From: a virus
Strand: one strand, 5' to 3'
Virus record (IMG/VR): IMGVR_UViG_3300046028_002034
Coordinates: 1 to 20,260 of that record
Length of the DNA stretch: 20,260 bases
The notes beneath the pieces were generated by a model that had not been told where the DNA came from, did not search any database, and saw only the letters and a list, made by a program, of their open reading frames with translations. Position numbers and translations under genes: made by a program. Below, piece by piece: positions 1 through 3,799 of this stretch. Position 1 is the stretch's first letter. The number at the start of each line of letters is the position of its first letter.

Positions 1-471
1 GGCGCGGTCGTAATAGCCGCGGCTAGCGTACCAATCGCGCCGGTTGCCCCACCCGATCACGGCATAGCCCGCCGGAGTCTCCGGCAGACAATCGCGCCAG
101 TAGGCCCACAACGCGGAGGCCAGCACCGCGGCGGCCGCGCGGCGGTACTCGGTCGGCCAATATTGGCCGGTCGTGTAGTCCAGGCGCGCGCCATCCCATG
201 ACAGGCGACCGGAGAAAGCCGATTGGAAGGCATCCCGCAGCATGGCCGCCGTGATGGACGGTCGAAGCTCTACGGCGCGGAGCAAGGCGCGTGCGTCCCG
301 CAAGTCTCGGCCGATAGATCGAACCTCGGCCGCGTAGGATGCCCGGTCGTAATCGCGGGCGTCCAAGCCTGGACGCTGGCGGATGAAAGCGTCTAGCGCC
401 GTCAGGATCGCGTCTCGTTCGGTCGCGTCATTGGTGGCGGTATCGGTGGGGGCGTGTGCGAGTGTTTCCAT
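1..471 (-). CDS. Hypothetical phage/plasmid-type protein, 3' end cut by window edge
   Basis: An open frame of 157 codons runs leftward from an ATG at 471 and is still open at position 1, so the C-terminus lies outside the window. The start is supported by CACTAGAGG eight bases upstream, the same signal used by the next two leftward genes. The N-terminal 20 residues are Thr/Ala/Asp-rich and probably disordered. A helical stretch follows (AILTALDAFIRQRPGLDARD, then RDLRDARALLRAVELR), and then an aromatic, Arg-rich part (TGQYWPTEYRRAAAAVLASALWAYW) ending in NRRDWYASRGYYDRA. From memory this pattern resembles uncharacterised proteins of phages and plasmids; I know of no assigned function. It is the last visible gene of a leftward cluster divergent from the structural genes, where regulatory or replication-associated genes often lie. 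Confidence 0.75.
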   Translation of the reverse strand, partial: METLAHAPTDTATNDATERDAILTALDAFIRQRPGLDARDYDRASYAAEVRSIGRDLRDARALLRAVELRPSITAAMLRDAFQSAFSGRLSWDGARLDYTTGQYWPTEYRRAAAAVLASALWAYWRDCLPETPAGYAVIGWGNRRDWYASRGYYDRA

Positions 472-762: not shown

Positions 763-1050
763 TTAGTACACTCGCGCATCATCCTCATCGGTATAGCCTT
801 GCAAATCCAAGTAAAACGACAAGGCATCGAATCGCAATTCCGTGATTTCGTCCATACGGATGTTAATCGCGTCGCATTCGGTTTCCGTAAAGAGCGGATT
901 CCATCGGCCATCGCCATCATAGTGGCCGACACCTTCGGGCGCATCATCGGGATGAAACGCGCGATTTTCGGCAGACAACGCCGAAAGGAATGCGTGGGCA
1001 TCCGCAGCGTTGCGGATGGGTTGCAGCATGTAAGTGGGAATCGTGGACAT
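763..1050 (-). CDS. Small acidic hypothetical protein, 95 aa
   Basis: A 95-residue acidic protein: MSTIPTYMLQPIRNAADAHA, then HPDDAPEGVGHYDGDGRWNP, then LFTETECDAINIRMDEITEL. The ATG at 1050 has CACTAGAGG nine bases upstream. The organisation (a short N-terminal strand, a helix AADAHAFLSALSAE, a loop with GHYDGDGR, and a second helix after PLFTETE) resembles small uncharacterised proteins from phages and plasmids of GC-rich proteobacteria. No catalytic motif is recognised. It is the promoter-proximal gene of the leftward cluster. A 127-aa frame overlapping it on the same strand has Arg/Pro/Met-rich shadow composition and was not chosen. Confidence 0.65.
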   Translation of the reverse strand: MSTIPTYMLQPIRNAADAHAFLSALSAENRAFHPDDAPEGVGHYDGDGRWNPLFTETECDAINIRMDEITELRFDALSFYLDLQGYTDEDDARVY

Positions 1051-1115: not shown

Positions 1116-1152
1116 CGGATGATTCCAGAATGGATGCAATCGCCAGGTCTGG

Positions 1153-1186
1153 CGGTAGGTAGTCGGTAGGCGGTAGATAGGTAGCG
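1153..1186. repeat. GGTAG-type repeat cluster, left group
   Basis: CGGTAGG, CGGTAGG, CGGTAGA and AGGTAGC follow each other within 34 bases, in the opposite orientation to the larger cluster at 1384-1613. A single TTGCCTACC in the other orientation follows at 1200-1208. Looser GGTA/GTAG copies continue at 1245-1280. Spacing is irregular (11 and 7 bases), unlike the 9-base steps on the right. Confidence 0.6.
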
Positions 1187-1296
1187 GATTGGGGCGAGAT
1201 TGCCTACCGTGCCGCGCTTGAAAAATAGAGCTGAAAGCATGGGATAGGTAAATTAGGTAGTCAGTAGATGGAAAGGTAAGGATTCTAGAGTGTTAT

Positions 1297-1312
1297 AGTG
1301 TAGTAATACACT
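1297..1312. promoter_or_regulatory. Small palindrome, possible operator
   Basis: AGTGTA GTAA TACACT is a perfect 6-bp dyad with a 4-base centre in an AT-rich patch of a GC-rich intergenic region. TATAGT (1294-1299) overlaps its left edge and a second TATAGT lies at 1324-1329, but neither has a convincing -35 partner. A repressor operator is possible; no repressor gene is in view. Confidence 0.3.
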
Positions 1313-1383
1313 GATGTTTGCAATATAGTACCAGTCGGGCGCACGCCGTCGAGCCGCACCGACTGAAAACAGGGTGTCTAAAG

Positions 1384-1613
1384 TGCCTATGTTGCCTACC
1401 GCCGCTACCTACCGCCTATCAGCTCCCAATCCGCACCTGTTGCGACCAGGCCACACGCCTTGTGGTGGATTGCCTACAATGCCTACCGCATGGCGATTGC
1501 CTACCTTGCCTACCATGCGACCGACTACCTACAATGCCTACCAATACCGCATGGCCTACATTACCTACCGCATGGGGGCGCGTAGCCAGTAGGCTATGCC
1601 TACCTTGCCTGTT
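1384..1613. repeat. TGCCTACC repeat cluster with 9-bp steps, right group
   Basis: Copies of TGCCTACC or one-base variants start at 1384, 1393, 1471, 1480, 1498, 1507, 1516 (TGCGACC), 1535, 1597 and 1606. Five pairs are exactly 9 bases apart (1384/1393, 1471/1480, 1498/1507, 1507/1516, 1597/1606). CTACAATGCCTACC occurs twice exactly (1474-1487, 1529-1542) and TACCGCATGG three times (1484-1493, 1545-1554, 1566-1575). The unit is too short and the gaps too irregular for CRISPR. Iteron-like protein binding sites are the closest known type, but a 9-bp step is shorter than typical plasmid iterons. Confidence 0.75.
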
Positions 1614-1660
1614 GCGTGATCGCTACACGCTGTCGCTTCCAGGCCACTAGCACGAGGCCG

Positions 1661-1818: not shown

Positions 1819-2292
1819 ATGTTCAAGTCGTTGCCGTTTGAGGCTCGTCAGCTTGTTGCCACCGAGGCGCGCTTGCAGCGCATCTATGATGCGGCGGCGT
1901 TGGGGTTGAAGGGTGATGCCCTGGCGTTAGCTGCGGGGATGCTGCCGGTTGAGTACCGGCGGTTGTGCCAGATGGATGCGATGGCGGCGATGGCGGAGGC
2001 CAAGGGGCGAGCGGACTCCGAGGTGGAGCTTGCGACCCATTTGAGGGAGGCTGCAAGGAATGGCGATGCCAAAGCGGCGCTTGCGATCTTGCAGCACACT
2101 CACGGGTGGGTGGCCAAGCAGCAGGTGCAGGTTGACGTTACGCAGCAGATCAGCATCTCTGCGGCGTTGCGAGAGGCGGAGTCTCGCGTCATTGATGGTC
2201 GAGTGGCGTCACCGCTTGCGGCTGCATTGAGTCGTGCGGAGGATGCCATGACGCTACCAGCGGAGGCGCAGCGTGCAGACGCCCATCTATAG
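1819..2292 (+). CDS. terS: Probable terminase small subunit, 157 aa
   Basis: The small terminase recognises phage DNA and hands it to the large subunit for packaging. The assignment rests mainly on position: it lies directly upstream of an unmistakable large terminase and overlaps it by 20 bases. The N-terminal part (QRIYDAAALGLKGDALALAA, then GMLPVEYRRL) looks like a helix-turn-helix DNA-binding unit, as expected for this role. The middle is helical and charged (EVELATHLREAARNGDAKAA, ending in ILQHTHGWV), which suits oligomerisation. The frame also extends upstream to a TTG at 1783, but that would add a Gly/Pro string translated from the hairpin region, so the ATG at 1819 (MFKSLPFEARQLVATEA) is preferred. 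Small subunits diverge quickly, so low similarity is expected. Confidence 0.7.
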   Translation: MFKSLPFEARQLVATEARLQRIYDAAALGLKGDALALAAGMLPVEYRRLCQMDAMAAMAEAKGRADSEVELATHLREAARNGDAKAALAILQHTHGWVAKQQVQVDVTQQISISAALREAESRVIDGRVASPLAAALSRAEDAMTLPAEAQRADAHL

Positions 2293-3799
2293 CGCCGAGG
2301 AAGAAGAAACCCTGATGGCGCGGCTGTGGTCGCCTGCCGTCAAGGACGACCCGGAGGCGTTTGTGCTGTTCGTGTTCCCGTGGGGGCAGAAGGGCACCCC
2401 GTTGGAGCACTTCAAGGGGCCGCGACGGTGGCAACGGAAGGTGCTGCGCGACATCGCGGCGCACATCGCCCGCAACAAGGAGTTGACCAACTTCGAAGTG
2501 CTGCGCATGGCGACGGCTTCGGGGCGTGGTATCGGCAAGTCGGCGCTCGTGTCCTGGCTTATTTTGTGGATGCTGACGACGCGGATAGGCTCCACAACCA
2601 TCGTTTCGGCCAACAGTGAGAGCCAGTTGCGCTCCATCACCTGGGCAGAAGTCACAAAATGGCTTGCGCTGATGATGAACAGCCATTGGTTTGAGGTGAG
2701 TGCGACCCGTGTGATGCCGGCGAAGTGGTTGGCGGAGCTGGTTGAGCGCGATCTCAAGAAGGGTACGCGCTACTGGTCGGTCGAAGGCCGGTTGTGGAGC
2801 GAGGAAAACCCGGATGCCTACGCCGGCGTTCACAATTTCGACGGCGTTTTGGTCATTTTCGACGAGGCAAGCGGTATTCCCGACCCGATTTGGTCGGTGA
2901 CGGCCGGATTTTTCACGGAAAACACGCCAAATCGCTTCTGGATGGCGTTTTCCAACCCACGACGGCCGGAGGGCTACTTCTATGAGTGCTTCAACGCGAA
3001 AAGGGACTTCTGGACAACGCAAAACATCGACGCGCGCACCGTCGAAGACACCGATAAAGCGGTCTACGAGCAAATCATCGCGGAATACGGCGTTGACAGC
3101 CCCCAAGCCCGAGTGGAAGTCTACGGAGAGTTCCCCTCTGACGGCGACGACCAGTTCATCAGCCCCCGGTTGGTGGACGAGGCTATGGCGCGGCCTCGTT
3201 TCAAGGATGAAAACGCTCCGCGAGTGATTGGAGTAGATCCCGCGCGCGGCGGGGCGGATGCGACGGTCATCGCCGTGCGCCAAGGGCGCGATTTGATTGC
3301 CCTGCACCGCTATCGGGGCGAGGATACGATGGCGACGGTGGGGCGGGTGATTGACGCCATTGAGCAGTACCGCCCGGCGCTGACGGTGATTGACGAGGGC
3401 GGCTTGGGCTACGGCATCCTTGACAGGCTCAAGGAGCAGCGTTACAAGGTACGAGGCGTGAACTTCGGTTGGAAGTCGCGTAATCCGGCTGCCTGGCAGA
3501 ACAAGCGTTCCGAAATGTGGGCGGACATGCGAGAATGGCTGAAAGGTGCAAGTGTGCCCGATGATCGGGTGCTGAAAGCCGATTTTGTCGGCCCGCACCA
3601 GAAGTTCAACTCCGCTGGTGCAATCCTTTTGGAGAGCAAGAAAGACATGAAAGCCCGTGGTTTGGCCTCGCCTGATGCGGCTGACGCCATCGCCGTGACG
3701 TTTGCATACCCTGTTGCCAGCCGCACGGAGCGCCCGTCTGAGCGGCGCGTCACGCTGCGTGAGGGCGGTGGTATGTCCGGCAGTTGGATGAGCGCCTGA
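2273..3799 (+). CDS. terL: Terminase large subunit (packaging ATPase and nuclease), 508 aa
   Basis: This is the DNA-packaging motor at the portal: an N-terminal ATPase drives DNA into the procapsid and a C-terminal RNase H-like nuclease cuts the concatemer. The Walker A loop is GRGIGKSA at residues 84-91. Walker B is VLVIFDEA (192-199) with D197 and E198. FSNPRR (226-231) fits the coupling motif. Nuclease carboxylates are seen as D322 in VIGVDPARGG, D374 in TVIDEGG, and D468/D471 in SPDAADAIA. All key residues are present, so it should be active. The start is GTG at 2273, with GGAGG six bases upstream inside the small subunit gene; the two frames overlap by 20 bases, which suggests coupled translation. 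The stop is followed two bases later by the portal GTG. Confidence 0.95.
   Translation: MQTPIYSAEEEETLMARLWSPAVKDDPEAFVLFVFPWGQKGTPLEHFKGPRRWQRKVLRDIAAHIARNKELTNFEVLRMATASGRGIGKSALVSWLILWMLTTRIGSTTIVSANSESQLRSITWAEVTKWLALMMNSHWFEVSATRVMPAKWLAELVERDLKKGTRYWSVEGRLWSEENPDAYAGVHNFDGVLVIFDEASGIPDPIWSVTAGFFTENTPNRFWMAFSNPRRPEGYFYECFNAKRDFWTTQNIDARTVEDTDKAVYEQIIAEYGVDSPQARVEVYGEFPSDGDDQFISPRLVDEAMARPRFKDENAPRVIGVDPARGGADATVIAVRQGRDLIALHRYRGEDTMATVGRVIDAIEQYRPALTVIDEGGLGYGILDRLKEQRYKVRGVNFGWKSRNPAAWQNKRSEMWADMREWLKGASVPDDRVLKADFVGPHQKFNSAGAILLESKKDMKARGLASPDAADAIAVTFAYPVASRTERPSERRVTLREGGGMSGSWMSA

Follow-up and report, generated by a model that had tools for sequence, protein, structure and literature searches.

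A putative replication origin in a P22-like podovirus: divergent iterons upstream of terS covary with the wing of a phage primase-helicase

What is the function of a dense cluster of short repeats located between a group of leftward-reading genes and the small terminase gene (terS) of an uncultivated podovirus? The question arises from a 20,260-base record, hereafter called the window, of a P22-like podovirus with P22-like portal, capsid, and terminase. Positions 1-1050 carry small leftward-reading genes without assigned function, and the genes to the right of the large terminase gene (TerL) encode the portal (phrog_156), the capsid (phrog_283), and the head closure protein Hc3 (phrog_578). 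An Rfam scan of the window yielded no match. The named isolates (DSL-LC05, MW202483) are distant kin only, with TerL identities of 68-70%, and nearly all matches in prokaryote genomes are to metagenome-bin contigs. Eighty close relatives were drawn from IMG/VR. Each of the three leftward ORFs has an ATG that is immediately preceded by CACTAGAGG, an extended Shine-Dalgarno-like word (minus strand, 480-488, 701-709, and 1060-1068), with no further exact copies in the window.

The initial annotation had described at least ten repeat units with five neighboring pairs spaced by 9 bp, and this description holds. Seven exact plus-strand copies of TGCCTACC begin at 1201, 1393, 1480, 1498, 1507, 1535, and 1597. 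Exact copies are absent from the rest of the record and from the minus strand, and a reversed-pattern control also gave none. If one mismatch to TGCCTAC is allowed, positions 1147-1620 hold 13 plus-strand and 5 minus-strand units, compared with at most five units, both strands counted, in any 474-bp window elsewhere. Exactly five 9-bp pairs are present (1384/1393, 1471/1480, 1498/1507, 1526/1535, and 1553/1562), which recur every 27-28 bp. By comparison, 2000 first-order shuffles gave a mean of 1.4 units (maximum 7) and of 0.004 9-bp pairs (maximum 1). The reported longer repeats could also be located: CCTACAATGCCTAC (1473/1528) and TGCCTACCTTGCCT (1498/1597) are exact 14-mers present twice, and GATTGCCTAC and TACCGCATGG are exact 10-mers present three times each.

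These units form two opposed sets (Table 1), with leftward units at 1151-1180 and 1244-1260, rightward pairs from 1384 to 1613, and AT-rich sequence between them. The opposite orientation of the left group had been recognized from the outset, and this group indeed has inverted-repeat matches to the right group. The array appears to be noncoding. In agreement with the earlier observation that no gene accounts for the repeats, only two ORFs cross it (1318-1650 and 1374-1592), and their translations are repeat-derived. In nine members of the same clade, conservation is higher for the GCCTAC cores (0.955) than for the remainder of the right array (0.875; p=6e-6).

Table 1. Features of the repeat region and its flanking genes, in window coordinates
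Feature	Position	Strand	Remarks
First leftward left-arm gene, flanking the array	763-1050	-	Function unknown
Left group of leftward iterons	1151-1180	-	CTATCTACCGCCTACCGACTACCTACCGCC on the minus strand
Lone TTGCCTACC site	1200-1208	+	Clade-conserved; at this place, relatives show one copy of their respective motif
Leftward iteron pair, weaker units, 9-bp step	1244-1260	-	TACCTAATTTACCTA on the minus strand; conserved, with equivalents in relatives
AT-rich stretch between iteron sets	1261-1325		60-68% AT; candidate unwinding element
Rightward iteron pair 1	1384-1400	+	TGCCTATGTTGCCTACC
Single rightward unit	1406-1413	+	TACCTACC
Rightward iteron pair 2	1471-1487	+	TGCCTACAATGCCTACC
Rightward iteron pair 3	1498-1514	+	TGCCTACCTTGCCTACC
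Rightward iteron pair 4	1526-1542	+	TACCTACAATGCCTACC
Rightward iteron pair 5	1553-1569	+	GGCCTACATTACCTACC
Rightward iteron pair 6, degenerate second unit	1597-1613	+	TGCCTACCTTGCCTGTT
terS (small terminase), flanking gene	1819-2292	+	Not the reader of the array
TerL	2273-3799		phrog_2/phrog_5902

The units are retained in close relatives (TerL 97-99%), in which the flanks vary; one of these relatives (L003) differs from the window by an extra 9-bp unit inserted at rightward pair 6. More distant relatives (TerL 71-87%) lack TGCCTACC, yet they carry an array of another unit at the same locus. These alternative units include TTGCCCACA, ATGACCCAA, TTGTCCACA, CTACCCCAC, TGCCCAC, TGACCCA, TGTCCAC, TGACTCAC, TACCCCA, and others. 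The layout in relatives is usually one of 9-bp direct pairs (the step is at times 8 or 10) in two sets that diverge from a shared AT-rich stretch. Averaged over 92 loci, AT content between the opposed sets peaks at 0.71-0.76 against about 0.45 around them, and the median distance from the last leftward to the first rightward pair is 117 bp (quartiles 107-123). Relatives devoid of repeats, or repeats dispersed elsewhere, had been named as grounds for doubting the significance of the array. What was found is an array of other sequence at the same locus, and in long-contig genomes it occupies one locus per genome, unlike the scattered sites of dispersed (stoperator-like) operators. Such an array is lacking in about 23 relatives, mostly from one clade with a truncated primase.

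Members of the L025-L048 clade (e.g., L033, L026, and L047) have a primase-helicase without its N-terminal half, and other, partly palindromic repeats (GTTGCATAAACGCAAC) replace the 9-bp pairs 5' of terS. In three further relatives (L008, L062, and L067), perfect tandem arrays of short units (about 13 copies of GGCTGAC; GGCAGGCG) are inserted next to the iterons 5' of terS.

Each genome uses a single unit sequence that is common to all copies of both sets. Because all copies in a genome are alike, the array must have changed as a whole, and many times. Such whole-array changes occur even between phages whose TerL and TerS proteins are essentially identical. Motifs were called automatically, with a few tandem-repeat artefacts (e.g., GGCTGAC) left out, and their registers were aligned cyclically; four of five apparent contradictions proved to be cyclic shifts of one motif and disappeared after alignment.

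Which protein changes together with the array? The only replication protein found with arrays throughout is a primase-helicase of about 764 residues that includes a DUF5906 region. About 230 loci around its gene were gathered, and 134 of these hold the array, the primase-helicase, TerS, and TerL. When pairs among the 134 loci are chosen for a protein identity of at least 95%, arrays differ in 32% of pairs matched by TerS and in 34% of those matched by TerL. For the primase-helicase, this proportion is 25% when pairs are matched over residues 1-330, 3.6% over residues 331-600, and 0 of 325 over residues 691-764. The same distinction can be expressed as the AUC for separating same-array from different-array pairs among the 958 pairs with TerL identities of at least 93%, which are not independent because of shared ancestry (22 TerL clusters at 93%). 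This value is 1.000 for residues 712-735, which form the predicted wing described below, and 0.984 for residues 691-764, compared with 0.629 for residues 1-330, 0.546 for TerL, and 0.527 for TerS. Residues 400-764 taken as a whole are somewhat predictive of the array. Spearman correlations over all pairs are low (0.16-0.28) because distant motifs are equally unlike, and near-identical pairs are the informative ones.

Linkage was assessed separately. The left-arm DNA between the primase gene and the array gave an AUC of 0.910, and the 700 bp beside the array gave 0.794. In 77 pairs, the wings are at least 90% alike although less than 20% of the left arm is shared; 87% of these pairs carry the same array and none carry different arrays. 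Conversely, 198 pairs resemble each other in TerL but differ in the wing and have unrelated left arms; arrays are different in 92% of them and the same in none. The covariation thus exceeds mere linkage, because left-arm DNA is less predictive and pairs with unrelated left arms follow the wing. In a redundancy control restricted to primases less than 97% identical, nearest-neighbor accuracy was 0.84 for the wing, 0.47 for TerS, and 0.43 for TerL, and none of 2000 permutations within TerL clusters reached the accuracy of the wing.

Particular wing types also recur with one unit in separate lineages, as AS(G/S/A)D does with ATGACCCAA and KSRxxD with TTGTCCACA. Arg or Lys at residue 726 accompanies arrays containing [CT]AC (22 of 27 wings against 4 of 23; p=1e-5 over 50 wing types, uncorrected for phylogeny). 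Together, these patterns point to the phage primase-helicase as the protein that reads the array, via its C-terminal wing. An initiator specific for its iteron sequence is a hallmark of iteron origins, and in this case covariation provides the sign of such specificity.

Within this protein, Pfam assigns a name to the helicase region alone (DUF5906), and the N-terminal half looks AEP-like by eye. In an AlphaFold2 model, the C-terminal 100 residues adopt a winged-helix topology (pLDDT about 85-94), in which the residues that covary form the hairpin between the two strands, i.e., the wing (pLDDT about 92). The winged-helix label rests on topology because structure comparison of the isolated domain is weak: Foldseek returned nothing with E<0.001 for the C-terminal model, and VIA-align gave a best Z of 6.3, a weak score, with common winged-helix arrangements only. 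The full-length model matches the C-terminal region of the NrS-1 polymerase (Foldseek E 9e-18) and pox D5/E5, as well as the SaPI5 primase-helicase (7ola, 1.6e-7) and PriRep1 with double-stranded DNA (7pds).

The window does not reach as far as the primase gene. One contig of 18,110 bases (L452) ends with 126 bases identical to window positions 1-126, and identical overlaps of this kind are typical for the ends of neighboring contigs in one assembly graph. Together, the two sequences (20.3 and 18.1 kb) come close to the length of complete relatives (36-39 kb), and the right end of the window has no match in L452, so that the genome is unclosed. L452 encodes a primase-helicase (L452:3976-6264, minus strand; 76% identical to the L010 protein) with the wing VDRGRVYSKEFPTKKHVF. 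Its Lys at the position of residue 726, together with the TAC-containing unit of the window, fits the pattern for this residue. This primase-helicase is probably the window phage's own, but L452 may instead come from a sister strain, as the join consists of the 126-bp end overlap only.

We conclude that region 1151-1613 is probably the replication origin of the phage, and that its iterons would be bound by the phage's own primase-helicase. This favors the suggestion of origin-type iterons among the functions first proposed, because the architecture, the shared AT-rich core, and the covariation with the primase-helicase all support it. Clustered short direct repeats at one noncoding locus and an adjoining AT-rich region are both present, with the AT fraction of the window itself being 0.60-0.68. 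The origin would consist of short iterons (unit TTGCCTACC) arranged in two sets, for the most part as 9-bp direct pairs, that diverge from the AT-rich center. The primase-helicase wing would bind these iterons, so that the protein could assemble on either side of the AT-rich stretch, melt it, load as a helicase ring, and prime replication. In ten complete genomes, GC skew has no extremum at the array, and its amplitude is near the random-walk level. A counterpoint to the origin reading is the distance of about 3 kb or more between the array and the primase gene, which differs from the arrangement of SaPI origins.

Other functions for the array were weighed against an origin. The location of the repeats between divergent transcription units, with opposed sets flanking an AT-rich stretch where promoters could sit, would suit an operator from which the primase-helicase or another left-arm protein regulates the early promoters on the left and the late ones on the right. 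It is common for an origin to coincide with promoters. However, the array is tracked by a helicase-primase, which is no classical regulator, the ORFs of eight relatives revealed no left-arm gene shared by all carriers (a sliding-clamp-like gene is missing from some), and the promoter and terminator scan reached chance level only, including its sole sigma-70-like match. We therefore judge an operator to be unlikely as the main function. The proposal of a regulator's binding array survives as a possible side function, in that the region may regulate divergent promoters alongside its origin role, but it is a replication protein whose sequence follows that of the array. It is very unlikely that some other linked left-arm DNA-binding protein reads the array while the primase C terminus merely travels with it. 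Sharing of the left arm does predict the array, and the C terminus is the gene end nearest to it, but the 77 pairs with unshared left arms and like wings argue against this reading, as do the peak of the signal within a 24-residue wing and the lack of signal from terS, which is far closer to the array.

The position of the array about 200 bp 5' of terS, in a phage with P22-like portal, capsid, and terminase, had also suggested a pac region, and by extension a pac or cos-type packaging site read by the small terminase. The sequence of such a site is expected to track TerS specificity, but this array does not. TerS proteins that are 98.6-100% identical (100% over the first 60 residues) co-occur with different arrays, as for L067 (CTACCCCAC-type) and L080 (TTGACCCAT), whose TerS proteins are 100% identical. 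TerS as a sequence-specific reader is thereby excluded, and its AUC of 0.53 among close relatives likewise speaks against the pac proposal, which we consider quite unlikely. Moreover, a G-rich element followed by a T-tract (GGGGGGCAGGGCC...GGTGCCCCCACGCAAAATTTTTTT, 1656-1717) lies nearer to terS and is kept across many array classes, with similar elements in 143 of 244 relatives. This element is a possible terminator or true pac/cos site, and is a better pac/cos candidate than the array. Finally, the units might be DnaA boxes bound by host DnaA or by a phage DnaA-like domain, given the likeness of one array class (TTGTCCACA) to a DnaA box and the stand-alone DnaA C-terminal domain encoded by MW202483. 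This idea has a negligible chance of being correct: PF08299 is absent from 49 of 50 relatives, TTGCCTACC, the unit of the window, departs from TTWTNCACA, and a host protein would not account for sequence switching among near-identical phages. In MW202483 itself, where the array unit is GTTTACAT, the DnaA-domain protein (L084:31423-31719, PF08299 E 3e-19) is possibly an alternative reader.

How does the proposed origin compare with known replication systems? SaPI Rep and SCCmec Cch2 recognize origin iterons through a C-terminal domain (PMC7581432). These self-loading helicases, which in SaPI5 take the form of a fused primase-helicase, are likened here to the podovirus protein, whose predicted fold is that of a primase-helicase with a C-terminal DNA-binding domain. 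The SaPI origin is directly downstream from rep, whereas the array is located before terS, separated from the primase stop codon by a left-arm segment of 0.9-5.4 kb (median 2.2 kb) plus the array flank. Because the origin is not beside the initiator gene, we do not class it as SaPI-type. The units also differ from those of SaPI and SCCmec in forming 9-bp pairs (the step is 8 or 10 bp in certain relatives), and the carrier is a tailed phage rather than a satellite or cassette. Phage P4 alpha is likewise a primase-helicase fusion whose winged-helix domain binds origin repeats (PMC4234260), although its repeats and layout differ and its primase is of the TOPRIM type, whereas the podovirus protein looks AEP-like. 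By analogy, the best reading is that the array would work like the SaPI Rep and P4 alpha origins.

The closest solved relative of the helicase region is the NrS-1 polymerase, a PrimPol-helicase (6k9c, HMM E 8e-12). That enzyme primes from one 8-nt template sequence with two copies in the genome (PMC7102993), in contrast to the iteron array described here. The AEP/SF3 helicase/winged-helix architecture is also known from the replication proteins of pRN1 (ORF904) and Bordetella phages BIP-1/BPP-1, for which a stem-loop 3' of the rep gene has been proposed, and no origin-like iterons were found in BIP-1 (PMC4234260). The array departs from this stem-loop model for related phage proteins. Neither the array nor its covariation was found described in a search of the open-access literature, which left subscription journals outside its scope.

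If the origin assignment is correct, the origin and initiator of an abundant uncultivated podovirus family have been identified from sequence alone, and AEP-type phage primase-helicases, for which a stem-loop had been suggested, gain an iteron origin. Initiators and origins would then be available as dozens of matched pairs from which to derive a DNA-recognition code for winged-helix wings, and with which to address the rapid switching of origin specificity among phages. A more speculative idea, which we regard as less likely than not, is that origin specificity diversifies by substitutions of the ~20-residue wing, with the iterons of both sets changing in concert. One habitat might then contain many replication-incompatibility groups, so that the initiator of a phage would activate no origin but its own when phages co-infect or satellites compete. 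A usable wing-to-base recognition code could then be read from natural variation, with Arg/Lys 726 and [CT]AC as an example.

Several additional elements were observed near the array. In the window, a hairpin (CCACC-GCAA-GGTGG, ~1788-1803) is located immediately 5' of terS and is kept in most of the TTGCCTACC clade. Other relatives (L009, L010, L019, and others) have a conserved leader (GTCTGACGTGATGCGCACGTAGCGACCGGGAGG...CATCTAAGGCAATCTCCGCC...) about 230 bases 5' of terS that resembles a structured RNA and has no Rfam match. A tRNA gene lies between the array and terS at L164:11445-11516. Two relatives carry a left-arm gene resembling a DNA polymerase sliding clamp (L006:1645-2331 and L003:1307-1945, minus strand; PF02767, phrog_947, phrog_3007), and this gene for a clamp-like phage protein adjoins the putative origin.
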